This document shows, one piece after another, positions 10,639-39,862 of a stretch of DNA of 64,000 bases (its first letter is position 1; each line of letters begins with the position of its first letter). The translations under genes and the position numbers were made by a program. The notes beneath the pieces are model-generated. The model saw only the letters and a list, made by a program, of their open reading frames with translations. It did no database searches and was not told the origin of the DNA. This stretch comes from Ceratodon purpureus (taxonomy: Eukaryota; Streptophyta; Bryopsida; Pseudoditrichales; Ditrichaceae): positions 1,877,194-1,941,193 of the forward strand of contig CM026432.1 of assembly GCA_014871385.1 (NCBI GenBank). Reading direction: 5' to 3'.

Positions 10639-10664
10639 GGGGGGAAGCACAATAAAGTGTACCA
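10639..10664 (+). repeat. Left terminal inverted repeat of the giant transposon
   Basis: 26 bp starting with six G, exactly the reverse complement of 39,781-39,806. A further short match (AAAGTG) follows a few bases inward in both arms. Confidence 0.9.
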
Positions 10665-13581
10665 AAAAAGTGCTTAACTATTTCCCAATTTCAGCCCCTT
10701 CCATAAACACTAGAGAAAGTGGGATCTACGTTATGTCGATGGAAGATTAAGTTTGAGATACGAAAAATAGACTTGATCTTCTTCAACTTCCCAAAGTTGC
10801 GGGAGAAGACGTTGAGTTTACAATAGAAAACGGAGACGTCGAACTCGGGTAAAGTGAATAGCCTCATTTGAAGAAGTGAACACAACGCTTTCAGGTTTAG
10901 ACCAAAAGTACTTTTAATTTCGCGGGGCCCTCCGCTTGTGAATGAGGGATCTAGAAATGCACCGGTTCGAGTACATCGCAACCAGCGGATTGGCTAGAAG
11001 TACCGTCGGAACGTTTTTGTGAGAGTGTTTTTGACGAAACTTTTGGTGCTCTTAAATTGATTTTTTTTGGTATTGGAATATTCCTTGAGGATGTTTTTGC
11101 AGACTGTGAGTTCTCGGAAAAATAAAAAGTGAAAAATAATTAAATTAAAAATAGACATTTCACGTTATATTCAGTGTGGGGAAAGTGCTAGTGGAATGCA
11201 AGTGCTGTACACTACTGCCACGTCGCAACAGCCAGCTGAACAGTTTCATGGGAACGTCATTACTGAACATCATTATTTTCACCCATAGAGTTCTGTGCAT
11301 AATGCGAGACCGCAAAGGAGGCTGTCAGTTCATGGTACAGTCGTCAATTACAGGATATGGATGGTGTGATTCCTAGGAATATGTTTCTGACAATCAATGC
11401 TGTTTGCCCTCGCGATGGAGAGCCTCGGTGGATCGGACCGTGACGTCGGAGGTGATGGAAATTTCAAATTTGGAGCGGAGCGGAATAATCGCCTGATGCC
11501 GACCGAATCAAGTGCCTTGCAGATCGAGGCTCCAACCGATCGGCCGACTAACGAGGAGAAGAGGTATCGATTTCTGGGTTTCAGTACTCCGGGAAATTAG
11601 GGTTTGAAGGTACAAGGCATGGATTGCGCACAGTGCATGGAATGCATGAAGACGGCTACTGATGGAGGGAGAGACGGCCGCATCTTCTATGCACATTAGG
11701 TGAGCAGCGGAGCAGGCAAGGAAATGCAAGTAACACGAATGTACTACCGCAATTGCAGGTAGTACCGTTTCTCCATATCCAAATTCGGGGCTACTTGTGA
11801 ATGCTGTGAATTTTTTACGCTGTTGGGTATGAAGGTTATAGATGCGAAGGAGTGATTGGGAGCAAGTTAATGGACTCTTATGCGGTCAGTATAGTCGAAC
11901 TCGAGAATTTAGGGTTCAGGTCAGGCTAAGGTTTAGGGAATTTTGTCAGATGTTGTTCATATTGAATATGTTGTTAGCGGCAGCATAAGTTGCGGGAAAG
12001 ACATGTAGTGATATGGGTGTTCCCGTCTCTGGGTGACTGTTGTCGTGATGGTCTTCCACGAGTGATTTTCAGGGCTTATAGAAGCGAATTCGCTATTATT
12101 CAGAGGCCGTTCCTAAGAACATGTTTAGGGTTTGACCTTCTGTAAGACATTGCACATTTTGGAAGTAGCACGCTCCATCAGAAGCATGACTTACTGGATT
12201 CAGAGTGTGAATGGATGCAGCCGGTGATTGCGATATCTCAGGGGACCTCGAAGGTTGCATTGGGAGAGCATGTGTAGCGCACTCGGATATTGACGTCGAG
12301 AGGCTGATTGTTCCATGGAAGCAGTCATGGCTGATCATCCAGTGCGGGCTTAATTTCAGGTACAAAGCACGGTCTTCAACATTCAGAGCTTTGGTATGTA
12401 TATAAGTATCGGAGTATAGTGAAAGAGCTCATTAGTCCTAGGATTACTGATCGTCGTACTCCATTGACGTACATGTCGTAAGTGTGGGTTTAGGGTGTAA
12501 GAGTCGAGGTGAAGAAATTGCTGATACGAATTGGCAGAAGCGTCGGCGATGTGCCCGCTGGGCACGATGTTGACGATGGTGGCACGCGTTCTCGGCCATG
12601 TCCATCACCGGGTGCAAAGTTAGCTGATCTACACTCCTGCATAGCGCGCTACGATGCGTTAGAACATCTGGCAGTGGCGAGCTTTCATTGAACTATACTG
12701 TGAGTAGTTTGTTTCCTTACGCTTGAACTTGCTGCTAGTCGAGGAATTGCGAACGTGTTCGACAAGTCATGGGAGCAATGCCGAAGCGGGACTTAAAGTA
12801 TGTATGCCGTTGAGTTCGTCTCTCCAAGACATGTGAAGTCCTGAATTTTCTCATTGGAATTGGGTTTCGGGTGGTGAAGCATTCACGGCGCATGCACACC
12901 TATCTTTTCTGGATGTTTTAGCGCTTTTGTGAGGTCCCAGCACCTGAAGAGCAGTTGCTAAGCACGGAGGACCTTATTTCTGAGTTTCGAGTTCTATGTC
13001 CTCGGGTTGAGAGGATAATTGTATTCTTAAAAGCACTTCCCTGATGCATGGAGAACTACTCACTGATACAGGATGAAGGATGATAAGATGTATCAGTGCT
13101 CTTCCTTGGCTGATATTTACGAACGTCGTGCAGGATTGTGATTGATAGAAGCCGACCCTGAGCTGCATGACGATGAGAAGAACGTGAGAAGAGTTTTACT
13201 CTCCCATGCCAATCAGCACGGAGTAGAAATCGCCGTAATATAGTTCTTCACGTCCTGCACCTTCCAGCTAGAAGAACAGCAAGAGATAGTTGAGTCTGAT
13301 CCGTATGTGATGCTGGGCTATCCTTAAATGTTCCATTGAAGTCATAGATCTTGAATCAGGGACCTGACATTTCACGAAGGATTCGGTACGTTCTAGATCT
13401 GGCAGAGTTGCGGACTGCGCATGTGGCTGACCTCGGCCCTCTGTGAGTGATCCGACTTTTGTTCGGAATAGTTTATCCTTTCAAGGTTTCGGTGGATTCC
13501 TGAAGGCACCAAGCGGATTGACACTGCTGCCAGGAGGAGAACTCCTTGTAACTGTCGAACGCTTCTGTTCCACGTTCACTT
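10665..13581 (+). promoter_or_regulatory. Left subterminal and upstream region of the transposase gene
   Basis: No long reading frame. Several AGGGTTT / TTAGGGTTT telo-box-like motifs occur (near 11,598, 11,912, 12,126 and 12,491), of the kind common around transcription starts of plant genes. GT/AG-rich spacing would allow 5' UTR introns, but I cannot place exons. I assign it to the transposase by position only. Confidence 0.35.
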
Positions 13582-16500
13582 ATGGGGAACCAGAAAAATA
13601 AGCGGTCCAGGCATGCAGCGTCTGCGCGGAGAGAACTAAGGCTGGAGGAGAGCCAGCGGCGGGAGATAGAGCTGAAAGCGAGAGCGGAGCAGGAACGCAT
13701 TCGGCTCTTGAGGTGCTGCTCATCAACTCAGCCGCCCATACTCATCCGTCATTCATGCTTCTTTCAGTGTGTGTGATTCTGAATTGTGTGTTGTCCAGAA
13801 CTTGGAGTATTTAAATGGATAGAGAGAATACTACAGAGGGGCGGCCAAACCAGAGAACATGAAGGATAAGTTCTTTGTGGCCATACTCATTGCAGGGCTG
13901 AACAACAGCGCGAGCACCGCAGGACATGGAGATCCCGGGTTCAGTCGGATCAGCTTAGGGTTGCAATTGAAAATGCAGGGCGTGAAGAACGTCCGCAGCC
14001 CTCTTTGGGAGAAGAGCCTCCCGTTGATTTGAACGGGGATGAAGAGCAGTGGGAGCCCATTCGGGAGGTGGAGAATAGAGGAGGTGAGGTGAGCGAGGCA
14101 GACACCGTGGACGAGGATTTGGAGGGCGTCACTCAGGCAACGGACTTTGCAGCTGATGATCTCAGGGACAATGACTGCACCAGAATGACACCACGCAACC
14201 GCAAGTGCTGGACTGCGACGAGGACGGGTGTCACTGCACTTATTCGCGTGCTGGATGCAAGTTTCACGGACGAAGAGAAGAAGGTGGTCCTGCATCGCTA
14301 CTTTGCGGATGACCGCATCAAGGCGCTGGACCCAGAGTGGTGCGAACAGGTGAATAATTTGCCAGTGGCCACTACAACGGTCCAGAGCCTTAGAGGGGCA
14401 TTGCAAAGAATCCGTTCCACATCTATTCAAGGAAAGGCCAAGGTAAGAAATATAGTGCTGACGGCAGCCGTCTCCAAGGGTGAGTCACAGCGAATGATTT
14501 GCGAGGCATTAGGGGCGTCACGGTACCTTGTTCGTAAGGCTTTCCTGCGGCGTGCAGAAGTTGATGAAACGGGTGAAAATCTATGGGCGGGGGGGGACAG
14601 AAAACGAAGAAGGGATGCACTCAGTGAAGAAGAACGCGGTACAGTCTGCTCTTGGTGGGAGACGGAAACCACAGTCTCTCCAAACAAGAAGGACGTTAAA
14701 CGCAGAAGAATTTCAGCAAAGGAGTATGAGACACACGCGACTCATTACTTGCAAACGTCGCAGGTATGCCTCAGTTCACCATAGCAGACACCGTCTGCTT
14801 TCAGGCATTTCATTTTTCAATTCATGGCAGTTGGGGGGTGCGGTTTAGGGCGGCGCGATGCTTGCATCATGACTATATTCGAATGCCTATGAATTATAAA
14901 CAGTCTGCTGTACGTTAGTTTCAGCTCCGGCTTCGTACTAATGCTTACCCGTGTATGCCCTGACGCCAATGCTCTTCCTCGCTGCGTTCCGGTGTATGCC
15001 CCAGATGCTGGTTGAACTGCCGCGAAGTAGTTGTGCAGAGTACATGATGTAGGAATGTGCGCTTCTATTACAATGGAAGTCACTGTACTCGGCTCTCTTC
15101 CAGGTGAGGGATAGGACGAGTGGGACGATTCCTGAATTAAGCTGAGTAGACGATTCGTGCGAGTGGTTCACTGGGCGACTGACCGAGAGGAGGTATACGA
15201 TGCTGGAATTTGCCTTCGCTCACGGCCCTCGGAAAGAGAAACCTAAGCATTCAGGAGCAGAGTGGTGGATTCAGGGTTTAGATTAGGAAGGGATAGCTGC
15301 GGCTGTTGCATTGTTTTCAATGTGACCTGCCCTGGTTGCTCCGTCAATCTCGGCACTCTAAGCATACATGGAGCAGGACTGACTTAAAGAGATTGGTCAC
15401 TTACTCCTACTTATTGCAAGCGTGAACGTCCTTCCGAAGGAGTGTAGCCATGAGGTTTGTGTCATGTAAGTGTGGATGTCTGATATCCATTTTTTATGTC
15501 CTACTTGTAGGGCCGTCACCTTGTTTGCAGCGCCACTGCTTTCGACCACTCAGGAACCTGTTCAACCAGATGTGTAAACCTTAGGGAAGGGGCACAGTTC
15601 CAACGTAGGCTCATTGTTGGGGCCATCGGGGCAGGGTGAAGGACTCGATGGAGCTTGTAGATGACTTCTAAAGTGGACACCGCCTGAGCTTTAGCATTTC
15701 TTTTTCAGCACTTTGCAATCTCAGTTACTTTTCGAATTCGTGTTCATGAGCGGTATGTCTATCAGTGCATGGCACTGAAATTGTACAGCCGAGGCATTGT
15801 CTATGACGGAAGTGCGGGTGCGATAGCACTTGCCCACGCCCGGGCAGTGTGTGGGGACACTTTTGCGCCGGTTCAATGAACTCTTTTCGTGTCATTCCGT
15901 TTTCCCGTTTGTCTACTTGACATCTGCTGTCACTTCGCTTTTCGGGCCCGCTTGCCTCAGTCGTTGCGTCGACTGAAGGTATTCTGAAAGCCTGCTAACT
16001 GACTGTGGGCAATAGAGCAGCTTCCTCTACTTCGAGCTCCTTATTAGTCGTGCTCATCTTAACTGCCTCTTGATTTGTGGCTCGCAGTTGGAGTTCCATG
16101 CCAGGTTTAGAGAAGCAAACGAACAAAGCCAGGTGGGGTTGCGGGCGTTCGAACTTTTGAAGCCATTTTTTGTCAGGCGTCTACTGGAAAGGAACACTTG
16201 TGCGTGCCGCTACCACTGCGAAATGGCGGAATTGAGAATGGGATGGAACAACATGAGAACAGCCACGAAGGGCATACACGGGCGACACTGCAGTTGTGAT
16301 TGCGAGGTCTGCGAGAGTCCACCAAGTGCAGCGACGACTTCATTGGGTCAGGGAGGGACTTGTCATGCAGAGCTGACGCATTTCACTGGATTGACGGATC
16401 TTTGGCATAGCGTCTTGTGCCCGGTAGAGGGGGACGGTTGGCATAATCCCAAGTGCATCAAGGGTGAATGCCAGCAATGCGGAGTGGACATGCTTCAGTT

Positions 16501-18774
16501 CTGTCCAAGGGAGATGGATAGCCAAGAAACTCTCATGGTACAGTGGCACAACTTCGAAATGGTGGTGCACGGCAGGACTAAGGCAGGTAAGGAGAACAAA
16601 GTGCTGCGGATGGCTTATCAGAATACTCCTGCTCCTGTCTACGTGGACTACTTGACGAAGAAGCTAAGAGCATTCATCGTGCATAACTACATAGCCAAAT
16701 GGCAGGCGGAGCGATTCAAAGAGTCCATCGACACCTTCCCTCCTGATTCTATACTGTCAGCTGTAGATTTCGCGGAGAACTACACGTTCCAGCCTTACCA
16801 GGAAATTCAGTCCATGCACTGGCTGCAGCACCAGATTACCATATTGGTCCATATCTGCTACAGGTGGAATCCGGCTTTCCTCGCAGATCCAACTTCAGAT
16901 GTCCCTAAGCTACTCACGGAGTATCACTACTATATTAGTGATGCCCCTGAGCACGACACGTTGTTTGTGCAGCACTGCTTTGCATTGCATTGGAGACACC
17001 TCACGGATAGGGGAATAAAACCTAATGAACATATAGTGTGGTCTGATGGGTGCGCAGCCCAGTTCAAGTCAAGGAGGTGTTGGTATCACGTGTCCAGGTA
17101 TTTACACCCCTTCAGCCACTCCTGTGTTTATTTTGTTGTCAATCTCTGTAAACTGATGAGGAAGTCTTTCATTCTTCATGTTCGTGGATCCTGTGCCGGT
17201 AGGTATCCTTCCACGACAGTCATGCCGGAGCTCCCGAACGGGTGTCGAATGGTGTGGTCTTACTTCGGGAGCGGGCACGGGAAGGGGCTCCATGACGGGG
17301 CAGGGGCAATGCTCAAGTGTGCTATCCGAAGCGAGGAGATGAATTTTGAGTCTCGTACCAAACTTCAGACTGCTGCAGATGTCGTAGCCTTCTGTAATCG
17401 TAAGGAGCAGGAAGAGCACAGGGCATATCCAAAAGCACGGGGAAGTCTTATAAGGTACTTCCATTTGATCGATGTAAATGCCGTGGACAGGACAAGGGAC
17501 CTCGATTGTCGAAGCATACCCGGCACTCGATCAGTACACTCAGTTTCATCTGTGTCGGCGACCAATGTCACGTTATTGCATATCCGACAGCTATCATGTT
17601 TTTGTCCTGAGTGCATGGACGACAACCCCATGTTCTGCACAAGGCAGAATCACGTACGGCAATGGGCCCTTACGGTCTTGCAACCTTTGACGCCATTTCA
17701 GGTGAGCCTGAATCGTTAGTACCGAAATTCAAGAGTCCTGTTGAACGTTTGAGAGCGTCTGCTAGGGATTGGTTGGGATGCTAGAGCGGTTTAGGGTCAC
17801 TGTCATACGTGGATTGAGAAGAGGGCAATGTGCTTTGTCGGGATTCCTGGATTTAGAGAAGTTTTGTAAGTGTCTGCATGCCGTCGACGACGCTTCCCTA
17901 AACGATTCTCGGGAATTTGCCGTGCGCGCTTGCGATAGTCCTCTTCCCTATGTCTGTTTCTGGCTACCCTCTGTCAGGGAACATACTCGGTTACAGAGGC
18001 AGCGTGCTTTGAGAAGGGCGCAAAGAGATGCTTGGTAGCTGGTCTCCCTTCTTCTGTGGAGAAGTTGGCAAAACAGTGAGATTTGGTGATTTCTGAGAAC
18101 TTGTATATACTCTGGAAAACCTTCATAGATTAATGTGACATGGGATCTGTAATGCACAGAGCATGGGCCCGGCGACGCGGCTACAGCGAGCGAGTGAGGG
18201 GTGCGCAGCGACGGGGGAGGCGGACGGTGTTCCCTCTCTGGAGGAGAGTCTGGAGAATGGGGAAGGAGTCCGGGTTGAGGGAACCCAGCCGGACTCAGGA
18301 CAAGGATCTGCTGAATTTCAAGACGACCTCATTGACGAGGGCGACGAGGACGAGGACGATGAATTGGACTCTGAGGCGCAGAGGGTCGAGGCTGGGGATA
18401 CATACGTTGTCTATACTGACCGGCCCGAACACGGAGACCGCTTCTTCTTGGTGCTCTGTGACATGCCTGTCCATAATAACAGCTCCACTTTCACAGATGG
18501 ATGGGGCTGCACTTGGCCAAAGGATACGATGCTGATCAGTGGAACCTATTATAGACGAATCCGTAGTGTGGGACGGGACGCTTCCTCCTTTAGGTACGAG
18601 CTCCTGGAAGATGAGCCGAAGGCATGGAACTATTCGCATCTCGTTGTGCAATCGAGGGTTGACCTCACGCAGTACAAGAGCAACAAAAAGAATCCTCGAT
18701 TCAAGATGTCTCCAGAAACACGAGAGACAATTCTATCCAATGTTGAGGAGAGGCAGGCGTATAATGCTCATTGA
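13582..18774 (+). CDS. Transposase of the giant element, four exons, 1,075 residues, DDD core
   Basis: Exons 13,582-13,712, 13,896-14,763, 16,088-17,701 and 18,160-18,774. Each junction has GT/AG sites and matching phase (2/1, 0, 0), giving one open frame with no stop. Visible parts: a charged helical N-terminus (1-60), an acidic stretch, a helix-turn-helix-like segment near residues 237-262 (SQRMICEALGASRYLVRKA), and a Cys/His-rich zinc-binding region near 370-500 (CACRYHC, HCSCDCEVC, CQQCG). The catalytic core has candidate acidic residues D560 (AVDFAENY), D653 (VWSDGCAAQFKS) and D736 (GHGKGLHDGAGA). This core resembles a family of uncharacterised DDD/E transposase-like proteins found in animals and plants. 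The last exon adds an acidic linker and a C-terminal domain. It would cut the element at its TIRs. The superfamily (Sola-like is my guess) is unproven. Confidence 0.85.
14764..16087 (+). other. Transposase intron 2, shares sequence with intron 2 of the right-arm gene
   Basis: A 1.3-kb intron, donor CAG|GTATGCC and acceptor CTCGCAG|TTGG. From about 14,884 to about 15,710 it is similar, in reverse complement, to about 36,412-35,590. The shared blocks include CTATGAATTATAAACAG, CTTACCCGTGTATGCCCTGA and CTCCGAAGGA-like DNA around GTAGCCATGAGGTT. The flanking exons of the two genes are not visibly related. Confidence 0.8.
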
Positions 18775-19800
18775 CAAGGAATTTCCCGCCCTTTCTTGGA
18801 GAGCGAGAAGCTAGATCAGGAATCCGGGTGCAGTAGTAGACAAAATCATTTCCATGGCCATCGTCGCTGTTGCGCGCTGGTGATGTCACAGAGCAAGCGA
18901 AGTGGGACTCCAGAGCTGCTGGTCGGATTCAGGAGGTACATTCTCATCTTCTTCTCTTGCAGGTTGAGTTCCAGATGGAGAGCTCTTGCGACTGCTTTGT
19001 ATGTTTGATGCCGTCATTACTGTGATTGTATGAAGTAGTAGTGTCTGAAGGTTGAGAGAGCATGTAGGTCTTGAGTGGGTAAGTTTACCGCATGTGATGG
19101 CACGTGGGTGTGCTATGGTGGACTTAATCCAGCTGAGGCTTTGAGGTTTGGGATTGTTTAGGTTTAGGAGCCTTTTCAGGATCGGTTAGTGTCTGTGATC
19201 CGGGGTTTGATGCAGCTGTGGGTTTGCGTTTGGTTGCTACGAGGGTAGAATTATGAGTAACTGATGTAAATTAGGTTTTGAATCAGATGCTGAGGATGAG
19301 TTTTTCCATATGCTACTGATGGGGAGAGATTTTGGGAAGTGAGCGCATTGAAGAGAATATCGTACATGAGTTCAATTTGAAATGATATCGTTCTCTGCTG
19401 TGTTGGCAGGGAAATTTGGCTCTGGAGCTTTGAGGATGGGCAATTGTTAGGAGTAAGGTGTAGTAATGTCGGCATTGGGAAACGGAGGGAGGGTGGATAC
19501 TGGATAAACAAGAGGGCATTGTAGGTTTAGGGTTATACACGAGCGGGTGGAATCAGTGTAGCGAACAGGTGGAGAGTTGGAGCGAGCTCGTGCAGTATGG
19601 TTGTGCTCACGTAAGGAGCCGGGCAGGGGAGCCATGAGAGGCGAGGGCGAGGGCCCATTCGGGGCAGGGGGGACGGCGGCGGGGGCAGGTTTTGAGCTCT
19701 GGACAGGGAGAGGGAGGGGCAAGTTTGGGAAGGAAGGAGGACATGCGGAGAGTCACAAGGACGGGGGTGATAGCGTCCGGAGGGTTGGCAGCTGTAGGGT
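18775..19800 (+). other. Spacer between transposase and polymerase epsilon fragment
   Basis: Noncoding. Telo-box-like TTTAGGGTT occurs at about 19,531. It may include the captured promoter of the polymerase epsilon gene, because the fragment starts near that gene's first exon. Confidence 0.35.
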
Positions 19801-22800
19801 ATGGCGGACCTCCGAGGTCGCTCTGGAGGCAAGCTTTGGGTACCAGATTTTCAGCGAAGGCGAGCCTCGTCTCGGATGGCTTCTGAACATGGTCTCGGTA
19901 TGTTAGTCTCCTTAATTCAATCTGTTAATCGGTGCCTCCTGCTGCACATTTCTATGTGCAGGCTATTCTATTTAGAATGGGATCCTCAATTTCTAGTTGG
20001 CCGTCCATTATTCTAAGATGGTTAGATAGACTGTGTAGTTTCACAGTTTGTCCTCTTCTTGTCGTTAACCATGGGGTCTGTACTCTGGCTCTATGGCTTT
20101 GGGCAGATTGTAACATTTTGGTTCTTCTGTTTAAGTGATTTGCACACTGTGTATTTTTTCTCTAGTTTACATTTCGAGTAGCCTTCTTTAGCGTTGCCCT
20201 GTGATGAAACGTGTGGAGTTTGCGGGTGAGGGTTTGTGAGTCTTGATGTATTATTTTTTTTGTTCTTGAATTTGGAGCCGTCGGCAATGGATGATCCCAA
20301 AAATGATAATACCACATATAGCTGTGTCAATCTCTACTTCATGTGCCAGGTATGCTGCACTTCTTATGCTAAACAGCTCTGGTTGTAGTGCGCAATGCCT
20401 TGAAGTGCAAGTGCTTTTTTTTCTCCCAGGATTCTAGCTGTATGTCATCGTGTAGTCATTCCTCGTCCACTTGTGGGATGTTGTCATCGGAAAGGGAATG
20501 TTTACACTGGCCATCATGCCAGCGAACATACTGTGGTGCTCATGAAGTTGTATATGTATTGAGGATGGATCTACATTCAAGGCACAAGTGAAGTTTGCCC
20601 CTTGCTTCTACCTGGGAACGAAGGTATTTTTTAGTTCTGGGCGGTAAAATTCGTTTCGCAGATTTTATGCAGAAAGCCTGAAGACACACCTAGGTGTCTT
20701 CCCAGTTGTACATGTAATTGACGTGCGAGAATAGCGTACTCCTTCTTGGGATCTTCTTCAAACTATTGAAAGTTACTGTAGGAAGTGTTGAAAGCCAAAA
20801 AATATCGCATTACCCTCTTCTATTCAGTTCATCAGGACTTATTTGTGTGATACTCATAATGGTTTACACTTGCAGGAAAACACGGAGTTAGAGGTTGATT
20901 CTTACCTAAACGGCGATATGAGGGGCAAATTGCAAATATTGAGGTAGTTAACAAAGAGGACCTGGACTTGGTGAGTGACGTTTTTTTGAATCCCCTGGCA
21001 AACAATATTGCATGTATGTGATTTTCTTGCTTAGAGAGAAGATTGAGAGACCTTTAATCGAATTTGCTTCTTTAAGATTACATTATGATACTTGTTTAAG
21101 GAGTCGTTTGTTCGGAAACTCTACTCCTATTAACTCCTCTTGTTAAATTCTGTTCTCGGTCGGGACTGCAATAGCTCTGCTGGATTGTTTGTAACGGCAC
21201 TTCCTTTTAGGATTAACTTAACAGCTCAATTTTTACAATCAGTTATCTAGGTATCGCAGAAAAATCACCTTCCAGAATTGCGACGTAAATACTTGAAAAT
21301 CAGCTTTAACACTGTGCAAAACCTGATGAGTGTTAAGAGTGAGTTGCTACCCTTAGTTGAGCGACATCAAGCAAAATTGGATGCCGCGGAGGCCTATGAG
21401 TCACTCTTCAACAATTCAGTGTAAGAGGATAGAATTTTAATCATGCCTTAGAATATTTTAGTTTGTATGAACTGTATTTAGTTTTTAAATGATCTTTGTT
21501 TTTTCTTAGAACACCACTTCCTGTGTTTTTTTAAAAGGCTTAGAGCTTGCATTTTTACTTGTGCAGTTCATCTGCAGAGGATTTGTAGGTCTCCCTGTGC
21601 ATGTGGTATCTGATGAAGTTAGTGGTGGGTTTCAGAACTGAACTGTAACCTGGAAAAATTCAAGACTACGTCGAAAATATGGTGGACTTCAGAGAGTGCG
21701 ATGTTCCGAACCTGGGTCCCTCTTCCAATTGATAATGGTGAGTCGTGATAGTCATGCCCTCGACCTTCACATGAGAAATTGGACCTTCTTTAAGCAATTT
21801 AGAGATTCTTACTGTGGCTCTGGGTATACTTCCCACAATGTTGGATACTATGTGAAACAATGTAGTGCCTTCTGCAGATATCAGGTGTGGTCTTTGGTAC
21901 ATGGTTAGTGTGGAATCCTCTCAGACAAAGTTGCAAAGAAGAACATATCTTTTGCAGCGTGCGAAGGTGCGGGTTTGTGCATTTGATATCGACACAACAA
22001 AGCTGCCTTTGAAGTTTACAGATGCAACTTATCATGACAGTGTGATGATGATTTCATACATGATTGATGGCCAAGGTTCTATTCAAGTTAATCGAGAGGT
22101 ACATTTTCATCCTCAATCATTCTCACGGGCATGAAGTTATTCAGCAAGTTGATCCTTTTAGTTTGAGCACAATTACTGGCCTAAAGTTTATTAAACGAAT
22201 TGAGTTTTGGTCCTTTCAGTATGTCCTTAGCAATGTGCAAGCTAGAACTGGACTGATAGCGTTTGTTGTGTGGTATACAGTGTGTTGGCGCCGAGATTGA
22301 AGACTTAGACTATACCTCAAAGCCGGAGTTCGAAGGTTACTTCAAGGTTACCAACACAGGAACTGAGGTGGGACATGCTTCAGTGATTGTCACAATGTAT
22401 GGTTCGCTATATGACCTCTGAACGACTATTTAAATGCTGAGCTTCTTTACTTGTTACGAAGTCCAACGTTGAGGATTTATCATATTGTCTACATTACACA
22501 GTCTTCTGATTGTCTAATTGTGAAAACTATGTCAATTTGAATATGAAGCTGTAGTCCTTGTCTGTGTAATTCGAATAATAAGGTATGATGCAAAACGAAC
22601 GCTACATAGTTGCATTGGGCTCGTGCAGCTTGGGGATCGTTTACTACAAGATCCGGACTGTCCTGGGTTCACTGACCTAGGTCACTGAGATTTGCAGAAA
22701 GAGCTGCTTGTTAGCTGGTTCTGTCACATGCGAGAAGTGAAGCCAAGTATCTACGTCACCTACAACGGTGACTTCTTCGATTGGCCTTTTATTCAAGCCC

Positions 22801-23211
22801 GTGCTCTTCATCATGGAATGAGAATGCACGACGTAAGTTTCTTTGGTAATGTACATTACATTTAGTCATGGACTGTTTTTCTCTTGAGTGGACTTCGTAA
22901 ACAAGCTCAGAAGTAGAACTTGCCAATTCTTATAATGTATTCCGCAAGTGCAGTAGTATCTATCTGTTCTGTGATATAAATGGTCAATTTGGGCACTGTA
23001 AAACTCTTTGGAGCACTGGCTACATTCTTTCTAGCAGTGTGAAAGTAGCACATCCATGCTGATGATAGTCGTCCTGACTCTGTAACAGGAGATAGGATTT
23101 CAACACAACGAGTAGCAGGGAGAGCGTTTCTGTAAATTCGCCTGTCACTTGGATTGCTTCGCCTGGGTGAAGCGCAACAATTACTTGCCGCAGGGAAGCC
23201 AAGGCCTCAAG
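19801..23211 (+). pseudogene. Captured DNA polymerase epsilon catalytic subunit fragment, copy A (ten exons)
   Basis: Intron-bearing N-terminal part of the plant POL2-type catalytic subunit. Exons are recognised near: end of exon 1 at 19,897 (EGEPRLGWLL), 20,279-20,349, 20,564-20,623, 20,876-20,970, 21,251-21,420, about 21,650-21,737, 21,878-22,098, 22,281-22,367, 22,698-22,832 and 23,089-23,211. The last exons include exonuclease-domain motifs VRVCAFDIDTTKLPLKF (the usual DIE triad reads DID) and YVTYNGDFFDWPFIQAR. The copy is broken: a one-base frameshift in exon 4 near 20,905-20,911, another in exon 6, and a TAG stop at 23,113-23,115 in exon 10. The gene stops after exon 10, so the polymerase domain is missing. 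The introns show that capture was from genomic DNA, not mRNA. Confidence 0.88.
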
Positions 23212-28301: not shown

Positions 28302-29499
28302 GACAGAGGACATGGGGAGGGGACATTCACAGTATACATTCCGGCTCTCTTCCTCTATGCCGTTTTGATTGGGCTCTGTATAGGTTTGTCATTGTGAAGG
28401 AGAGAGCATGGGCAAAGTTTGAACTCTGATTCACGGTGTGCGAGCAGCGGCCCAGGCCGTGTACTTGACGAGCTGAGTACTGTATAGACAGCTAATATTT
28501 TGAGACCCCCTTTCAGTTTTTTTTGTCACCGTTCTTGCACGTAGACTTCTTTGGACACTCTTGCAACACCATCAGGACACAAGCTGTAAGAGGGAACTGT
28601 GAGGAGAGCATGATAGGTTTGGTCCAATATTTCTCCGTCATTGTGCTCCTTGTTTGTTCGTTCAATGTTTTCAGATTTCGAAATGACTGTCCCTCAGTAA
28701 AGCTCCCTCGGACCTCGTGAGAAATTTCTAAGCCACGAAGGGAATACTCTCTTTCAGTAGACCTCCGTCCTAAACCTCGGTAGGATAGCTGTGATCACGT
28801 GGGATTCACTTCATTCCTTCTACCCTCATCGCTTCACTGCCTTCTCCCGTGTCCGGTCAGTGTGTGGTGAAAACACTTTTTTTCGGTAACCGGAGTGTGA
28901 CGTTGCTATTCCACTGAAGATCTGCTTTCGGACTTAGAGAAAGTGCAGCCGAAGTACAAGTGCAGTAACTAAACAGTTGACACTGGAGAGCACCGTGTGT
29001 TTTCACTTCCAACTTTACTGAATTTGGAATTGCGTTGCTACCCTTAGTTCTTTGCAACAACTATCTGCTACTATCCGGATTAGCTCTGTAATTCCATACT
29101 CACATCCAAACAAGATCATGTCCCCTGAATTAGCTGTACTCCTATGCGTAGGATTGGATGTCGCGTTTCCGAAACTGCACATGCTTGCCCATATTTAAAC
29201 TCCGCAGTGCGCCGTGAAGGTGCCTCCCGTTTGATATCCTGCATCTGTGTTCCGTGTTTTCGCTTACACTTTCTGAAAGACACAGAGGGTCCTGTTTCAC
29301 CAAATGACGTAATACAGGAATATAGGCAGAAATGTGGCACATGGCTGAAGAGCCCGGAGCGATCTGAAAAAGTGCAGCAAAATTTCGTCCATATTTCAAA
29401 GTCCCCTCGTGTTGCAGCATGGGAAGCTTGCCTAAAATGACTACGTCCTATCCAAGTCTATCTCCCGTAGAATCATCTATTATACACTCGAAGGCTACT
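28302..29499. other. Noncoding centre of the giant element
   Basis: No frame here is supported and no host-gene similarity is recognised. It separates the convergent plus-strand gene and minus-strand BOP1 fragment, so it would hold 3' ends of both. If two elements had fused tail to tail, their lost right ends would be expected near here, but no copy of the G6 terminal repeat is visible. Confidence 0.4.
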
Positions 29500-30199
29500 A
29501 CTTTCAGCAGCTGACGTCACCTCCGGCTTCGTACAATATGCAGTAGACTTCCTCGCAACACTGGCAGCTCAAGCACTTCCCGCCATCAGCAAATGAGTAG
29601 GGCATCACTGCTCGTGGAAGAAGCCCATCCACTACCTGGAAAATATTTCCACGCGCCAGGCTCCAATGAAGCATGAGGCAGGCCTTCAATGTCTAATGCA
29701 TATCTCCAATGATAACCACAATCATTGTGGCCAACAAGTGAAATATGGATTCCATCCGATCGAGAGGTACACAGCCTCTGAATTAAACATCTGTAAGATG
29801 TCAATAAAAAGGAGCAATGAGAGCAGAGCCCATCTCTTCAAGGCGCGGGAACAACTGGTCACGTAAACGAGCCCGCGGAGTCGAATTTCCTACTTCCAAT
29901 ATAGCTTCACAGTGGAATCAGCTCCTGAAGTGAATATCCATGGCTGCCTCGGATGAAACAAGCAGTCCATCACACCTGTTGCGGCAAGAAAGAAATCAGG
30001 TTCGTCAAGTTGCACTATTTTGTAGAGTCCGGCCAATATTTTCCAAACATGCATCACCACCTACCACGAAGATAGTACAATGGGGTTTCGAACTGGTCAA
30101 CCATACACAAGGCACTACGTAAAGTATCCGGAGGATATACTATGAATCCCAAGAATTCCGAGTGACTAAAAGGTGATTGAAGCCCACATAAAAATTCAA
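29500..30199. other. Presumed decayed 3' part of the BOP1 capture
   Basis: A 61-residue minus-strand frame at 29,504-29,689 and short neighbours have no clear match to the expected last WD40 repeat. No other feature is recognised. Confidence 0.3.
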
Positions 30200-32132
30200 G
30201 AGTCCACCTTCTCTCCAGCAGCCAACTTACCTTTGTGATTCACTGTTTTGTGGCCGAGTAATACTTTGAGCGGGACAAGTAGAGGATTCTGAAGAAGATC
30301 AGAATACAGCATGCCATGGAATACACTGGTGGTGCCATCATCGGAACAAAACTCTTTTCGGTGGGTACGTCGTGTGAAATGCTACGGCCCTGATGTCCTT
30401 CGTATGATTCCTGCATTTCAAAACCAGGTGAACATCGAATTAGGACACAAATCTCGACCTACTGGAAGCTGCAATGCAGAAGCAAATAACCACACAAGGA
30501 GAAGTACTGGGAAACGGTGGTACACAGCCGAATAAACTTACATAAACGCCTTATAAGGCTTCGTTGAAAGATCCATGTCAAAGCACACCGTCTTCGATTC
30601 TTGACTTCCCAAAATCAAATTATCACCTGCAAAGGAATGGAGATGCATTAAAATCGCTCTTCTATTGAAATCTCTACTTGCAGCAGCCCCTTGACAAGTA
30701 ATCCTTCACCCAAGGAATTGCATCACAGAAGGACAGACCTGAAGTGGGCGAACACGGACTTCAAAAAACCATCACCAATAACAGCGGAATTCATGAAAAA
30801 CTCATCTGATAAACTGAAGATTCAAAACCAACCAGCTCTAGGATTGCCATGGACGATATTTCATTCAGGCTAGTCATCAGCTTCTTCGAAAGCTGCTGCG
30901 TGGCGAAGTTGTAGATGTGCACATGCATCTTTGTTGCTACAAATAGGAAAGGCCGTTGTGGGTGGAATAATACTCGTACTACGCGTCCGTGATGTTTCCG
31001 GAATGGGTTCTGAGACTGTTGCTTCGAAAGCTGATGCACTAACACAGAGTTTGTAATACGTGCTGACGAAGGGTTAAGGAATAACTTCACCAAAATTTTA
31101 AGATTCCATCTTACTCTATTCACTCCAATGCAGAAGACAGGCAAACAGATAAACGCGACAAATTGAGGAGGATATTTTCAGGAGCGACGGTGGCAAAATA
31201 ATCTCCCTTGTGATGCCACAGGAATGACTGAACTTCCTGCGAAACCACAAAGTGCAAGATTATGTCACTAATTGAATATCAAATACCAGAGCCTACAGTT
31301 CAAAGGAGTTGATTTGAACATTCAGCCATTTTCTGCAGAAGAGCTCAGTCGAAAATATTCCAGAATTTCAGGACGTGCATTACCTCAATCCACAGCAAAA
31401 TATGATTGTTCGTCCCTTCCAAAAACCATAAGCAAGGAACATACAACCACATGCAGGCAAAAACAACCAATTCTGTTGTGCAAGGATAAGACCGTAGAAA
31501 TGGCTGTCCCACTCTTAAGCTCTTGAACTTCTCATCCAAACCCTAGGTAGCTAGTGGTGTCTCCTCTGCACCTGAAGCATACAAAGGTTCAAATGTAAAA
31601 CGCGGCATTCCACGCATAATATTAAAACTACAGCATTACAATGACATACAGTTCAAAGCATGTTCAAGATAAAATATTTGAGCCGAGAAGGACCCAGAAA
31701 GCATTACTGCTCCAATTGTGCGCCACTGTGCGCACGACTGTTTTAGTTTGCTTATGCGCTAACTGATGAGAAAGGTCAAGACTCACCTGCTTCTTTAAGT
31801 GTCAACAAGGAAGACACATTCGCAATGACTTCTTCCCCACCCAGCTCTGTTGATAACAACACCACATCTTTGTCCCTGCAATAGGGGCAACAGTTCGAGA
31901 TCCACCACTTTAGAAAGCAGCATAAGAAAAGCCGAGAAGATGAAATAGACTGGGTTTACGTAGACATATCAAATCCAAGATAGTGATTGGAGACATACAG
32001 TGCGAGTGGCCAACATATTGATCTGCGGATTAGGATTCCACTGCACGTTGTTGATCTTCAATCCGAAGTCCCACACTTTCCGACACCTTCCTGATTGCAC
32101 ATCCCAGAGCCGCACCGTGCCATCCATGGAAC
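30200..32132 (-). pseudogene. Captured BOP1 (ribosome biogenesis WD40 protein) fragment
   Basis: Minus-strand exon-like blocks follow the order of the BOP1 C-terminal WD40 propeller: 32,132-31,999 (GTVRLWDVQSGRCRKVWDFG), about 31,886-31,790 (DVVLLSTELGGEE), about 31,237-31,170 (HHKGDYFATVAPEN), about 31,060-30,840 (HQLSKQQSQNPFRKHHGR and FVATKMHVHIYN), about 30,632-30,540 ([10 protein letters not shown] and [10 protein letters not shown]) and about 30,365-30,215 ([13 protein letters not shown]). BOP1 acts in the PeBoW complex in 60S ribosome maturation. The N-terminal half and the very C-terminus are absent. The first two blocks do not join in frame, and the block near 31,520-31,560 is hard to read through, so it is a nonfunctional genomic fragment that keeps its introns. 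It lies immediately downstream of polymerase epsilon fragment copy B in the same orientation. Confidence 0.85.
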
Positions 32133-32344
32133 CTGCGCAATTGTTCCCATTATTACCTTGTTAAAACATAGATGTGTTGGCACTCACGTTGTACGAGTTC
32201 GCACAGTTAATCAACCATACCAAAACTCTGAACCTCACGCGACAATGCACCACGTTCAAGCATTGGAGCCGTAACAGGAGAACTTGGTCGAAATGGCGAC
32301 TATGCAACAAACAAAACTGGTGCAATCAGTTGATCTCAAACGCC

Positions 32345-33005
32345 TAAAAATTGCAACGAACATGGTACGGAACATCGTACTCTCTGAAGTCCACCATATT
32401 TTCCAGGTTGTTCAGTTCTAAATTCCACCATTAACTGTAGCGGATTACCATATATACAGGGAGACGTAAATATCCTCTGCAGATGAACTACACAAGTAGC
32501 AAAGCATATTCCAAGCAATTAAAAAAAAAAATACACAGTAAGTGGTATTCTAAGAAGAAGCAACGCTCGTATAAGAGATGAAATACAGTGATAAATTATT
32601 CTGAGGCATGACTTAAAATTCTATCCTCTTACATTGAATTGTTGAAGACTGGCTCATAGGCCTCCGGAAGCGCTCAATTTTGCTTGACTTCGCTCACCTA
32701 ATGGTAGCAACTCACTCTCAACACTCATCCGCTCTTCCACAGAGTTAGAGGCTGAGTATCAGGTATTTACGCTGCAAGCCTGAAAGGTGATATCTCTGCG
32801 ATACATAGAGAAGTACAACTGTGAAAAAGTTCACTCCTGAATTGATCCTAAAAGGAAGTGCCAGAACAAACGATCTAGCAGAGCTACTGCAATCCCAACC
32901 GAGAACAGAATAACTGACGCCGAACTAGAAATTCAGAATCCCATTCTAGATAGTATGGCCTGCAGATGGAAATGTGCAGCAAGAGACACCGATTATCAGA
33001 TCCCT
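32345..33005 (-). pseudogene. Captured polymerase epsilon fragment, copy B (inverted, internally deleted)
   Basis: On the minus strand, 33,005-32,915 matches intron 1 of copy A (about 19,925-20,014; shared block CTGCTGCACATTTC). It then jumps straight to sequence matching copy A at 21,145 (GTTCTCGG block) and runs through exon 5 and exon 6 to about 32,350. About 1.1 kb holding exons 2-4 is missing, and the junction falls at a short shared ATTCT. Exon 5 here contains stops; exon 6 (VDFREYDVPYHVR) is better kept than in copy A. Just after exon 6 the sequence changes to BOP1-linked DNA. Confidence 0.85.
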
Positions 33006-33882: not shown

Positions 33883-36800
33883 CTAAGTTCCTCCATCGCG
33901 CTTCCGCTTCGCTGGCTTCCCTCCACGGCCGCGTCCCTTCCCTGCATCACTAACCACGGCCGGTGCCTTGAATTTCTCTTGTAACCCAAAACTTGCGAGT
34001 GGCTTCATATTGCACTGTTTCTCTGCCCTGGCAGCGCTCTGCGTTCCTCGCCCTCGCCCCAGATTTAGCTTCTTCGTTGCAGCCTCCCTTCCTGCATCAC
34101 TTGTTCCACCGAGAGCGGCACCCGGGGACGGGCACAGTGTATTGCGCAGGGCGGCCACTCTAGCGCTTCTCTGCGGTGCTGTTCCTTGACGTGGTGCCTT
34201 CTCGGTACTTGGGGGTGACTCCGGATGAGCATTGATTTCAGGACTTCCCGTGTCCCCCTCAAGTGATTGGAATTCCGTGTCTGGCAAGGCCAACTCGTAG
34301 ACTCCCTTGCTAGGAGGCGACGTTTCCCTCTCCTTTCCGTCGCTGACGGCCTTGTCCAGAAGGATATTCTCAGTCGACCGTGTATCTGGGGTGTCTGCAT
34401 CGTCGTCCACGATGCCCAGCTTCTCTTCTGGCAGGGTCTCCGGGACCACAGTGTCGAGAATTTCTTTTTGTCCACGCTCACGGTTCGCATTAGGAAGCTC
34501 CTGAGCCTGGCTCAGGCAAATCTCCTCATTCTCGGGGAAGAGTATACTATCGTCGGATGTCCTCGTCGACAGAGCTGGCACCTTTGAAGGAGTCCCGGAT
34601 TTTGTCAGTGCTGGAGGGGTACCGAAAGCCAATGCCAGAGGACCTCCTACTCCTTGTTGACTAGCCACCCTTCCCGCACTTGACGTTGGCGTTTTCCAAC
34701 CTGCAGATGCAGGTGTCTTCACCTGTCCCGACGAAGGCGTCATTGCTCCCTTCTCCTTGTTCAAAGGTGGAGTCCCAGAAGCGGATCCCACATGAACTAC
34801 ACATGCGAACACATATGTCACACACAGTACTTAGCCTCCTTCCGCATTTTTAAGTACAAACGGAAGAAGTGGTTCGATCGAAGAGAGGCACTTAATTCAT
34901 TTTCTTGTGAAGTAAAAGTGAGTCAGTGAAAATTCAGGGTCCCCGAAGTGGACCAACCGCTGGTCACTTACTCAACGTGGGTTCACAGTGCTTATGAAGC
35001 GACAGTCATCTGAAAAGTGACCCCCTACCCCAGGAAGGTAACATCCCAGCACCCGAAAGCAAAAATAAAGCCTTCGTCGAGCTTGGCACCCGCTGATCAC
35101 TAGCACTCACTGCGGACAGCACTACCTCAGCGAAATGAAGCGAACGTGCAGCACCATCCCTCTGGTAAAGAGCACTTGCACCGGCCCACAGTGAATTATC
35201 ACGCTTTCAGAGTACCATCAGTCGACGTAACAGTTGAAGCAAGCACCCCCGAAAAGCGAAGTGACTCCACATCTCAAGGAGATAATCCGGAAAACGGAAT
35301 GACAGGACAAGAAAATAGTGAAGCACGGCACTTATGTGCCCGCACACTGCCGGGGCAGGGACAAGTGACTTCGCCGTCAAGCACAATGCCTCGGCAGTGC
35401 AACTTCACTGTCAGGCACTGATAGACATAGGCCTCGAGGACACAAAATCGAAAAGTAACGAACATTGCAAAGTGCGAGAAAATAAAAGCTAAATTATACA
35501 CTTACATGCCTTAGGTAAGAGCCCGACAGTGCTTATGAAGTGCGTAGCACAGGACACATGCCCATGCAACTGCGGCTCTACTGAAAGTACGCTTTTTGGA
35601 CGGCCAGATGCTGAAAATTACCTGGGCCGGTCTCGTCCACTTCAGAAGTCATCTACGAGCTCCATCCAGTCCTTAACTTTGCACCGATCGTCACGACAAT
35701 GACCCTACGTTCGACTTCTGCCCCTTCCCTGAAGCTTACACACTGGATTCAACAGGCTCCCCTGTCTGCGAAAGCAGTGGCACTGCGAAGAAGGTGACAG
35801 CCCCACAACTCTGCTACGAGAATTGGCTATCATAGATCGACAGCATCAGTAGAAACCTCATGGCTACACTCCTTTGGAAGAACGTTCACGCCTGCAATAA
35901 GTAGGACTCCATGAGCACTCTCTCTAAGTCAGTCCTGCTCCGTGTATGCTTAAAGCACCGGGATTCACGGAACAACCAAGGGAGAGCACTTCGAAAACAG
36001 CGCGACAGCCCCACCTATCCCTTGCTAAGGTAAACCCTAAAACTACCACTCCCAGGGCCCTGCTCAGGTTTCTCTTTCCTAATGCCTCAGTGAATGCAGC
36101 ATCAGATCGATCCATCGCTCAGTGAAACACTCGTGCGGATCTTCTACTCAAATTTAAGCAGGAGTCGTCCCCCTAAACTTCTCTCTATCCCGGAAGACAG
36201 GCAAGTACAGTGACTTCCCTTGTAAAAGAAGCGCAAATCCCTACATCATGTACTCTGCACAACCACTTCGCGGCAGTTCAATCCGAGTGTTCTGAGGCAT
36301 ACACCGGGACGCAGCCACGAGGTGCATTGGCTTCAGGGCATACACGGGTAAGCATTCGCCTGAAGCCTGGGCTGAAAGTAACGTAAATCATACTGTTTAT
36401 AATTCATAGGTGTTTGGGAGAGCAGAGTAAACGATTTCAGGCCGTGCGTTCTGTCTGCAGAGCACATCCTTGGCACATCTAAGAAGAAACCAAAACTAGG
36501 AACACACGTGACTCAGGCTTGTTTTCGAACTTACAGTTAGTTGACGCTGCCGCTGCTACATTCCCGCCACCATGCCTGTTGAGTCTACTTATTTGACCCT
36601 CTAGCTTTGGCACTCGAAGTGCTGGCGCCCTCACTTGATTGGCGCCGAAGCTGTCCAACCAGTCAGCACAGAATGTCTGTTCGCAGAACTCTTTTGCGCA
36701 CCTTCTTCTCCCGTCACTCAGCCAAGCAGCAAGACAGAAGTGATGATACGTACATCCACAGTCCGCAACGGAGATGTTATGGCACAGGAAATTAAAGCCA

Positions 36801-39082
36801 CACACCGGACAATTGGATACGCAGATCACCGTTTCTCGCCCCTCCTTAGCTACTCGGGGATTTCGTACTGGGAGTGGAGTGGTCCCCATTCCTGAGCCCA
36901 CGGCCATCATTTGCACCTGATCAGTCAGCTTTGCCACCCACGTCTCTAGCCGCGTTGACTGCATGCCTCGTAGCCGAATTTCGTGGTCAACCCCCCTTAG
37001 CTCTGACTGAAGCCTCTCCTGCTCCTGTCTAAGCTGCTCCGTCCTGGCACTCTCACGGTTAAGTATGTGGAGCCCAAATTCGAGGTCCTTGTCTGTCAGC
37101 CTCAACTGTTCCTCGTCCTCCGCACAGGTTTCTTCAACTCTTCCGTCGTCATTCTCCCCTGATCCCGTGCTTGTTCTTATAGAATTGAAGTGCGCGACCA
37201 GACTCTCCCGACGCCTCCTAATGTTGGCGCAGCTTAGCTCCTCCTCTCGCAAAGACTTCTGCCGTTCGGCTAGAGCGCCATCAAGTGCCTTGCACTGCTG
37301 CTGGAGCTCCCTGCACCTGTGTTCCAATACAGACCTGCATGACAAATCCCCCCCCCCCCCCCCCCCAAACTCAGATTAGAGGATACGGAAAGGAGCAATG
37401 GTGCTATCCGTAACCTAACACTGATCACAAATGCTCCTATTCTGCGGCGAGACCTTCTGACATCATGGAAAATGCACATGTTCGTAAACCTAGACGTAAT
37501 CCATTTTATGATCTGCCTCGCGGTGTTTGCAATGATGAGACCCACCAACGTCCAATAAAACTGATGGTGTCACTACTCTGCATGAAGGAATTGCCCAATT
37601 CAGAAACAGATCATGCATCCAGTCGCGCTACTTACTTCATGCTAATCTGAAATTCAGGGACAAATTGCAGGGAAGGACTCTCTTACACTTGCTCTCATAT
37701 ATACCTCACCGTAACCTCGACTTTTACCTCATCGGCAGCCCACCGAAATCATGGATTAAGCCCTCACTGTATGTCCATTTGTCCATGTGCTGAAACCGAA
37801 CATGTCGACTGACTATGCAGCCTCTTGAATCCCTCCATCGCTGATAACCATTGTGTGTGGAATTGGAAGGACACTAACAGTACACAGCACTTCTACGTGG
37901 ATATCACTATTTAATGTGTATACGAATTTCGAGTGTTCAAACTCTAAACATCAGACCCACACATGGACATGTCAGAAGGCGGAAAACATTATGTTGAACG
38001 CAAGATTTTGCAACCGACTTCTGTTACCGTACATGCACTACTGAGATATCCCCGACAGTCTTGCAAGGTTCTCCTCAGCAGTGCCACGTCCATGTGTAAA
38101 TTTCCCTCACCAAGACCATTTCGTGTTTGACCTCCTAGCGAAGACACTACTTAATTTCATCCAAGCCCTGTCTGGGACCCCAAATCCGCAATCTCATCTA
38201 CTTTCGGAATTTATTACTACGTTTACCATATCTAAATCGTGTATCTCACACGTTGTATATGGCCGCTCAAGCAAGTATGGAGTGCCGACTCACAGACGAA
38301 GAGTTCGTGCAGTTCCATGCCGAACCAAACGAGAAATTTCTGATGTCTGAGTCCAATACCTAATTTTCTAAACAAGAACTTGCAAAATATGAGAAGAGCG
38401 CCTTCACTTACAGCTTAGGCCCGACCCCGGCGCAGTCCGTCTCCGCATCCCCCAGCATCTCGAGCACAGCGTCGCTCTGTTCCTCCGTAAATCGAATTGG
38501 CTCACAAGTCGCTCCGATCTGACGTCGATCTCCCTGGAAACCTCCCTGCCCTAGGATGCTCGAGGTTGGAATTGCCTGCAGATCGTCCCACTTTGTTGCG
38601 AGAGCCTCCTCCACTCTCCCATCCTTCTCCCACGCAACATACTGTTTCCGGCAAATGTCATGGGCAAACTTCGCCCAATTTATCTTCGCCTTCCCCTCCC
38701 TTTCTGCCAACCAACTCCTCAAGAAATAACGAGCGTACTCTTTGTTCGGGGGTGGATGATTATACACTTCCAAATAGAGCTGGAAGACCATAGCGCACTC
38801 CTCCTCCGTAATGAATTCATTGGGCACTAAGCGGATTCCACTCCCACCCTTGTTCGGGAACACACGCTTGAAGTGATTTTCGGTGACGTGCGATAACCCA
38901 CACTCCGTTTTGCCGCAAATTCCGGCGTCCTCCTTGTTCAGCTTCTCCGCAAAATCCTGCACAGTCCAACGACAGCGTTCATGCAGAGCTTTCGCGAACT
39001 TAATCCTCTCAACATTCTTGCGATTTAGGTCAGGATCTGGTTTTGCTGCCGCAGTAGCCAATTGACGCCCCGCAGAAGCCAT
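33883..39082 (-). CDS. Right-arm gene: coiled-coil / RING-like protein, three exons, 794 residues
   Basis: Exons (minus) 39,082-38,412, 37,334-36,535 and 34,796-33,883. GT/AG junctions match in phase (2/1 and 1/2) and give one uninterrupted frame. Residues 1-223 form an unrecognised, well-folded-looking domain (Trp-rich, NWAKFAHDICRKQYVAWEKD). Residues 225-365 are a charged coiled coil. Residues 399-441 hold a RING-like zinc finger, C-x2-C-x14-C-x-C-x2-H-x2-C-x10-12-C-x4-C, with Cys in the usual fourth His position. The last about 300 residues are Ser/Thr-Pro-rich with TPS/TPP repeats and end in an RGRG box and a KPAKRKR nuclear signal. RING-like fingers in transposon proteins may act in ubiquitin- or SUMO-type transfer or simply bind partners; I infer only a nuclear accessory role. 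AAACCCTA-like telo-boxes lie upstream at about 39,166-39,195. No homology to the transposase exons is visible. Confidence 0.72.
34797..36534 (-). other. Intron 2 of the right-arm gene, shares sequence with transposase intron 2
   Basis: A 1.74-kb intron, donor ACT|GTAAGT and acceptor GTGTAG|TTC. About 36,412-35,590 aligns with 14,884-15,710 in inverted orientation. The rest (about 35,560-34,800) has recurring CACTT / AAGTG motifs and no frame of note apart from a 91-residue plus-strand frame at 35,146-35,421 that I do not support. Confidence 0.75.
37335..37385. repeat. Poly-C tract in an intron of the right-arm gene
   Basis: A run of about 18 C (plus strand) at roughly 37,350-37,367 lies just upstream, on the minus strand, of the exon 2 acceptor, so the intron has poly-G a few bases before TTGTCATGCAG. 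It is unusual next to a splice acceptor and likely to be length-variable. Confidence 0.7.
37386..38404 (-). other. Intron 1 of the right-arm gene
   Basis: About 1.07 kb between donor AAGCT|GTAAGTG and acceptor TCATGCAG|GTCT. No frame of note inside on either strand. Confidence 0.55.
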
Positions 39083-39780
39083 GCAGACCCAACTCTTTCA
39101 CTGTATTCTCTTCTGACCGATGGGCCGCACAAAGACTCCCTGAACCCACAACCCTGTCGACAGAGAACCCTAATTACAACTCTCTCAAACCCTACCGCAA
39201 CACGTATTACACAGACGGCAACTCTGAAGCTCAATTCCCTGTTCTCAGCGATCGGCGACGGATTGCAATTCACGACATTCAACCTCGCGTGCCTGCCACC
39301 ACTCAGAACACTCGGATTTTCCTCACGCCTCGCAAATTCCCTACTCTCCCTCGCAAACCTTCACGGCGCAACTTGATGAACAAAGCGAAAGTTTCCGGAC
39401 AGTGAAGTGTCCATCTCTCGTGATCCTGGATGCTACTTCGTGCACCCTACCCTGAATCCTCTACCGTAGACCGGCACAAGCATAAATGAAGTCGGGCACG
39501 CACCTGATTGCATCAATTTCCCATCCTTGGAAACCAAGGAGATTCCGCTTGGAGCCCTCAACTGGCTGCGCAGCATTCACAACCCCCGTCGCGGGATTCG
39601 CAACAATGAAGACATGTAACTCGGCTTCTGTGTCCACCCATAAACCTCTGCTCCAAGTGTCATCCCAAACCCCACTCAGTCATTTGGCAGTTGAGCAGCC
39701 CCCTACGTTCTCAAACGTTCCCTCAGTACCCGACCTCGCCACTTAGATTTCACTGCATTTTGGTCACATGTGTCACTTTG

Positions 39781-39806
39781 TGGTACACTTTATTGTGCTT
39801 CCCCCC
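39781..39806 (-). repeat. Right terminal inverted repeat of the giant transposon
   Basis: 26 bp, the exact reverse complement of 10,639-10,664, followed by CTAT (39,807-39,810), which matches the tetranucleotide left of the other end. Confidence 0.9.
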
Positions 39807-39862
39807 CTATATATTTTTTTATTTTTTTTTGAATGTCAGTTAAATTGGTAAGAATTAGGACA

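Follow-up and report, generated by a model that had tools for sequence, protein, structure and literature searches.

The 64,000-nucleotide stretch of Ceratodon purpureus DNA that we analysed (hereafter the window; positions 1,877,194 to 1,941,193 of contig CM026432.1, assembly GCA_014871385.1) contains, at 10639-39806, a single DNA transposon of 29,168 bp. This element carries a rightward transposase gene, leftward genes for a coiled-coil/RING-like protein and for an orphan protein of 224 amino acids, and two variable stretches, here called slot A and slot B, that hold pieces of host genes. In this moss, such giant cut-and-paste DNA transposons very likely form a large family, of which this element is one member. 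Its features, in window coordinates, are the following.

10635-10638, no strand: left target-site duplication, CTAT
10639-10664, plus: left terminal inverted repeat (TIR), 26 bp, starting GGGGGG and identical to the right end
13870-14763, plus: transposase exon, N-terminal part, borders approximate; open frame with 57% amino acid identity to copy C7 and a donor-like CAG|GT at 14763
14886-16011, no strand: inverted copy of the intron region of the RING-like gene (35184-36410), inside a transposase intron
about 16060-17097, plus: transposase exon that includes D251 and D344 (residues counted in the frame 16016-17716)
17098-17202, plus: intron of 105 bp, GT...AG, stop-free and lying within a long open frame
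17203 to about 17701, plus: transposase exon with the HGKGxxDG motif (D427)
18139-18774, plus: last transposase exon; similarity between copies stops at or just past its stop codon
18785-23396, no strand: slot A, variable, with no same-strand match at 1e-10 to five other elements
19343-23231, plus: piece of POLE (catalytic subunit of DNA polymerase epsilon) in slot A, contiguous, with exons and introns; left border provisional
26303-28301, plus: element gene or genes common to C7 and C1, with two coding stretches, 26303-26851 and 27480-28301 (coiled coil)
29285-33004, no strand: slot B, variable, with no same-strand match at 1e-10 to five other elements
29893-32160, minus: pieces of BOP1 (ERB1) in slot B, in several frames
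32349-33001, minus: second POLE piece in slot B, inverted, in two parts
33883-34821, minus: second exon of the coiled-coil/RING-like gene, with a basic low-complexity C-terminus; C. purpureus gene models P0134-P0137 link it to the RING exon
36482-37345, minus: coiled-coil and RING-like exon, stop-free in six of six elements
38408-39082, minus: orphan gene G5, 224 amino acids, with a helical structure model
39781-39806, minus: right TIR, 26 bp
39807-39810, no strand: right target-site duplication, CTAT

The left terminal repeat is the reverse complement of the right one over 26 of 26 bp, and each is single-copy within the window. Given that the right end has seven C, the CTAT duplication requires a six-base tip, and this tip is also seen in three other complete copies, each with its own 4-bp repeat. 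The four complete large copies (the window element, 29,168 bp; C7, 28,228 bp; C1, 28,489 bp; C5, 28,521 bp) all show an exact 4-bp duplication in the same register, namely CTAT, GAAG, TTGT and AATC, respectively. Several independent insertions thus combine TIRs with a target duplication of constant length, as in class II TIR transposons. There are also short copies with both ends, mostly of about 0.73 kb; among the seven examined (L002-L008, the best left-end matches), three have an exact 4-bp repeat, three have one if the tip is one base longer or shorter, and one has none. We searched 362.5 Mb of genome in 151 contigs, one of them longer than 110 Mb, and the counts of matches are lower bounds. 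The left end (200 bp) gave 40 scored matches from 1524 candidates and the right end (207 bp) gave 41 from 669, the window being included in both, while the transposase exon gave 77 scored places from 1379 candidates. The first-pass annotation had read this locus as one giant TIR transposon with perfect 26-bp ends and CTAT on both sides, carrying an open transposase gene and captured host DNA. The identity of the ends and the duplications in four of four full-length copies bear this out, as do a transposase without internal stops (exons 13870 to about 14763, about 16060-17097, 17203 to about 17701, and one within 18139-18774) and the POLE and BOP1 pieces. Of the outcomes that it named as refuting this reading, one, that no other copy has the same ends, is excluded, as such copies exist elsewhere in the genome. 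No paralogous empty site was found within the 64-kb window. Helitrons were excluded as candidates, given the TIRs and target duplications.

The same gene order recurs across the genome. The 224-amino-acid gene has at least 145 matches, some of which are pieces of one gene. When the 77 transposase places were set against 107 of these 145 matches, a convergent 224-amino-acid gene lay within 90 kb of the transposase at 59 of the 77 listed places, at a median distance of 28.8 kb, while the control arrangements were found at few of them (same strand at three, wrong side at two). In 33 cases among the matches listed, the distance between this gene and a matching right end outside it is 495-758 bp. 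The convergent pairing and the distance to the right end point to a common order of left end, rightward transposase, variable middle, leftward RING-like and 224-amino-acid genes, and right end. Such an order also bears on whether the 29-kb unit could instead be a composite, made of two smaller related elements or of a small element enlarged by nested insertions, with the genes of the right half as host or foreign passengers. Long inner inverted repeats (14886-16010 with 35184-36410, and 21147-21712 with 32364-32911) would suit such an origin, as would the roughly 13.3 of 29.2 kb for which the other five elements offer no match on the same strand. However, transposase, RING-like and 224-amino-acid genes follow one another in the same order in C7, C1 and C5, which inserted independently, measure 28.2-28.5 kb and have their own 4-bp duplications; the position of the last gene near the right end in the 33 cases also speaks against a composite. 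The inner repeats are themselves explained by two inverted POLE pieces and by the RING-intron copy in the transposase intron, for which no match was found at that place in C7, C1, C9 or C5. A composite origin is thus largely refuted, and we consider it quite improbable.

Among the long matches of the 224-amino-acid gene, we also noticed that 14 of the 29 on the largest contig, C6, contain stops, compared with 6 of the 69 elsewhere. This contig is probably the sex chromosome, and the excess would fit if copies decay on a chromosome that recombines little.

We compared six elements: the window element, C7, C1, C9, C5 and C12; of C9 and C12, the sequence compared starts at the transposase and ends with the right end. 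All six share the transposase, which is of the DDE type, the coiled-coil/RING-like protein and the 224-amino-acid protein, and all three genes are under purifying selection. In the transposase, an additional exon is likely near 13582-13734, and the 105-bp stretch at 17098-17202 is where most of the stops in other copies fall; homologues lack the corresponding residues. The structure model shows the RNase H-like DDE/D fold expected of a class II transposase. At least 99 homologues are listed, including proteins from Ceratodon, Taxus and Elysia, and none is named Sola1. For the coiled-coil/RING-like exon, the ratio of nonsynonymous to synonymous divergence (Ka/Ks) is 0.10-0.39 in the 14 measurable of 15 pairs, and for the second exon of the same gene it is 0.28-0.47 in 14 of 15 pairs and 0.71 for C7 and C1. 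For G5, neither a Pfam family nor a fold match was found.

The gene set named in the first-pass annotation (transposase, coiled-coil protein and RING-like protein) was incomplete. Two further multi-exon genes had been proposed besides the transposase, which holds broadly, but the gene at 38408-39082 had been missed and the coiled-coil frame at 27480-28301 was found in only three of the six elements, and not in C9, C5 or C12. The window copy has at least four genes, and the constant set includes the 224-amino-acid protein. Frames of these genes are already listed as “hypothetical” and “RING-type domain-containing” proteins of C. purpureus, and gene annotators should be aware that element frames sit among the annotated proteins of this moss. 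In slot B of C9, a plus-strand frame of 363 amino acids (L051 4846-5934 (-)) resembles an element gene, being a distant relative of the window frame at 26303-26851 (26% over 117 amino acids). By eye, both of these frames resemble a stretch of the 224-amino-acid protein (FARGLLAEKMGFAVDWASFA / FLRSWLAEREGKAKINWAKFA), so that the elements may bear a small gene family of their own.

The two slots hold pieces of conserved host genes, and these differ between copies. In the window element, the POLE piece of slot A is 89-90% identical to the sole other genomic match, a gene on contig C4 that we take to be the host gene, and the POLE piece of slot B is 82% identical to it; within slot A, a weaker shared boundary match was found at 23242-23306. 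Polintons were excluded as candidates, the polymerase-like frames being a piece of the cellular POLE with its introns. The recognised cargo of the other elements is as follows.

C7 and C1, slot A (shared), plus: QWRF piece
C7, slot B, minus: TPR/MLP-like piece, presumably NUA
C1, slot B (L043 1996-4883), minus: DNMT1/MET1 piece
C9, slot A, plus: VPS8-like piece
C9, slot B, minus: GCFC/PAXBP1 piece
C12, RING side (slots not delimited), minus: KIB1-4-like frame

The VPS8-like, KIB1-4, TPR_MLP1_2, BAH and BOP1 WD40 matches are below the curated Pfam cut-off; the BAH and BOP1 assignments were confirmed by the structures of DNMT1 and BOP1, whereas that of VPS8 was not confirmed by structure comparison. 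The MET1 piece of C1 aligns once, over 2.9 kb and at 94.2%, with a part of contig C3 that we take to be the host gene, and has four further short matches of 80-90% in the genome. It retains open frames of 259 and 232 amino acids, with a replication-foci domain and one BAH domain, and might, if expressed, interfere with the DNA methylation of the host. The genomic source was looked for and identified for POLE and MET1 only, and comparison with these two genes shows that the host pieces were copied as genomic DNA, introns included. All nine recognised pieces, which come from five of the six elements, have the same orientation as the element gene beside them (two-sided binomial probability 0.004), and without the second POLE piece and the KIB1-4-like frame the count is seven of seven (0.016), the cargo having been chosen by eye from frames on both strands. 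As only conserved genes are recognisable in this way, bias may account for what looks like a preference for essential genes.

The elements are, moreover, mosaics of blocks with different histories. C7 and C1 are 98.4% identical over 6.7 kb of the right arm and 96.9% identical over 8.9 kb of slot A and the middle genes, but their transposases are only 77% alike (74-81% in the exons) and the contents of slot B do not match, the second cargo being unrelated. The switch lies 248 bp past the transposase stop codon, where the two sequences pass from unalignable to 98-100% identity within about 60 bp. Likewise, the window transposase is nearest, among the six, to that of C9 (87.9% at the DNA level, with a synonymous divergence, Ks, of 0.36-0.47), whereas the right arm of C9 is nearer to those of C7 and C1 (87.9%) than to that of the window (84.5%). 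Such discordance might conceivably arise without any exchange if the transposase module evolved much faster than the right arm, and it is true that, between the window and C7, silent sites of the transposase exons are saturated, compared with a Ks of 0.3-0.5 in the right arm. A difference in rate, however, would leave the branching order unaffected, and the maximum-likelihood trees of the transposase and the right arm reject each other's topology (approximately unbiased test, p = 1.2e-4 for the transposase and 3.7e-14 for the right arm); nor would it explain the jump within about 60 bp. We therefore regard unequal rates as a most improbable account of the mosaic. Both this mosaicism and the common orientation of the cargo are new with respect to the earlier reading of the locus.

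These observations lead us to propose, tentatively, that the elements may be modular vehicles: a fixed chassis, consisting of the ends, the transposase and the RING-like and 224-amino-acid proteins, and a docking slot in each of the two arms, where conserved host-gene pieces always lie sense to the transcription of the arm, while cargo and the transposase module are exchanged between elements much as phage modules are. The MET1 piece of C1 is 6% from its genomic source, while the chassis shared by C1 and C7 differs by 1.6-3.1%, which would suit elements that passed ready-made cargo to one another, or lost it, better than it would suit fresh capture, with the caveat that a relaxed cargo copy could diverge faster. 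As to mechanism, the transposase would bind the GGGGGGAAGCACAATAAAGTGTACCA ends, excise the element and reinsert it with a 4-bp stagger, and it may also move the short copies of about 0.73 kb that bear the same ends. The two right-arm proteins might assist or regulate transposition, as their frames stay under selection. Host pieces could enter, and blocks could be swapped, during the repair of the excision gap or of breaks in the element, if the repair polymerase took a related element or a host gene as its template (synthesis-dependent strand annealing with template switching). As every recognised piece is oriented like the element gene next to it, antisense cargo is probably weeded out or never taken up. 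If this sense-only rule is true, antisense cargo may be counter-selected because it would silence essential host genes; alternatively, sense cargo may shield the element, as the host gene would suffer from the same silencing.

To which superfamily the family belongs is best judged from the duplications and the transposase. Sola1 elements reportedly make 4-bp duplications, as the moss elements do, and, together with the DDE fold, this makes Sola1 the best fit among known kinds, in line with the Sola-type suggestion of the first-pass annotation. The moss elements are giant and cargo-bearing, with exchanged modules, and probably of Sola1 type. It is rather unlikely, although it deserves weighing, that the family belongs instead to another DDE superfamily with duplications of about 4 bp, such as Ginger or Academ, or to an unnamed one. 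In favour of this alternative, no Pfam transposase or integrase model matched the window transposase frame, and the best VIA-align matches of the transposase model are retroviral integrases. Ginger elements, however, end in TGT...ACA and match integrase models, neither of which is seen here. Furthermore, Sola1 is listed for the moss Physcomitrella (PMC9033089), and a giant Sola1 with an accessory gene is described in Ectocarpus (PMC12477816).

Several points weigh against the main reading, that of a family of giant cut-and-paste transposons that capture host pieces and swap blocks. For the transposase, the best solved structure in Foldseek has an E value of 0.0018, so that none reaches 0.001, and the structure model was built on a frame that includes the 105-bp intron. 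D427 lies outside the 90% conservation list of an alignment of 60 sequences. The coiled-coil frame at 27.5 kb has a Ka/Ks of 0.51-0.62, so that this gene may be decaying. Finally, capture and exchange are deduced from their products, and unequal crossing-over or gene conversion would leave similar mosaics.

Large elements with accessory genes are also known in other organisms. The Starships of fungi reach tens of kilobases and carry accessory genes, but they differ from the moss elements in transposase type, theirs being a tyrosine recombinase. In Ectocarpus, giant Sola-1, KDZ and EnSpm elements have been described, and that report (PMC12477816) includes a table with a single Sola-1 family, whose Sola1-1_Ec32 is 21.5 kb long and has an accessory gene on the opposite strand. 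The giant algal EnSpm and KDZ elements resemble the moss family in their size of tens of kilobases and their accessory genes, although they use a different transposase. The accessory content of the Ectocarpus Sola1 is ParB plus a DNA methyltransferase, in contrast to the coiled-coil/RING-like and 224-amino-acid orphan proteins of the moss, and host-gene cargo and block exchange between copies distinguish the moss elements from it.

Within plants, there is a likeness to the Pack-TYPE elements (Pack-MULE and Pack-CACTA), with which the moss elements share host gene fragments between the TIRs of a DNA transposon. Pack-TYPE elements, however, are non-autonomous by definition (PMC8903248), whereas the moss elements carry cargo together with selected transposase and accessory genes; judged by its sequence, the window element would not belong among elements without a transposase gene, as its transposase exons are stop-free. 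Reported Pack-MULEs are mostly of 1-2 kb (PMC6431247). The titles and abstract openings of the open-access papers that our searches listed yielded no description of this moss family. Most plant TIR elements known to carry parts of host genes are small and non-autonomous; the moss family is numerous and consists of units of about 28 kb whose transposase and accessory genes are under selection. The sharp exchange of blocks together with host-gene cargo opens two questions to testing: by what route host DNA gets into TIR transposons, and whether silencing of the element and the host depends on how captured essential genes are oriented.

Outside the element, two galactosyltransferase genes (PF01762), at 3322-4314 and 42145-43125, both on the minus strand, flank it at a distance of about 38 kb from each other. 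They are 95% identical over 1.16 kb, and the surrounding flanks are otherwise little alike. The window begins, at 1-749, with 2.7 copies of a 276-bp tandem repeat (97%) that contains GC-rich inner repeats. The stretch 51001-59000 is AT-rich, with a GC fraction of 0.25-0.34 compared with about 0.4-0.5 around it, and contains a perfect 20-bp tandem repeat at 53374-53459. Near the end of the window, an open frame of 370 amino acids at 62793-63905 on the plus strand has a protein kinase domain (1.7e-30) and is perhaps a piece of a receptor-like kinase.
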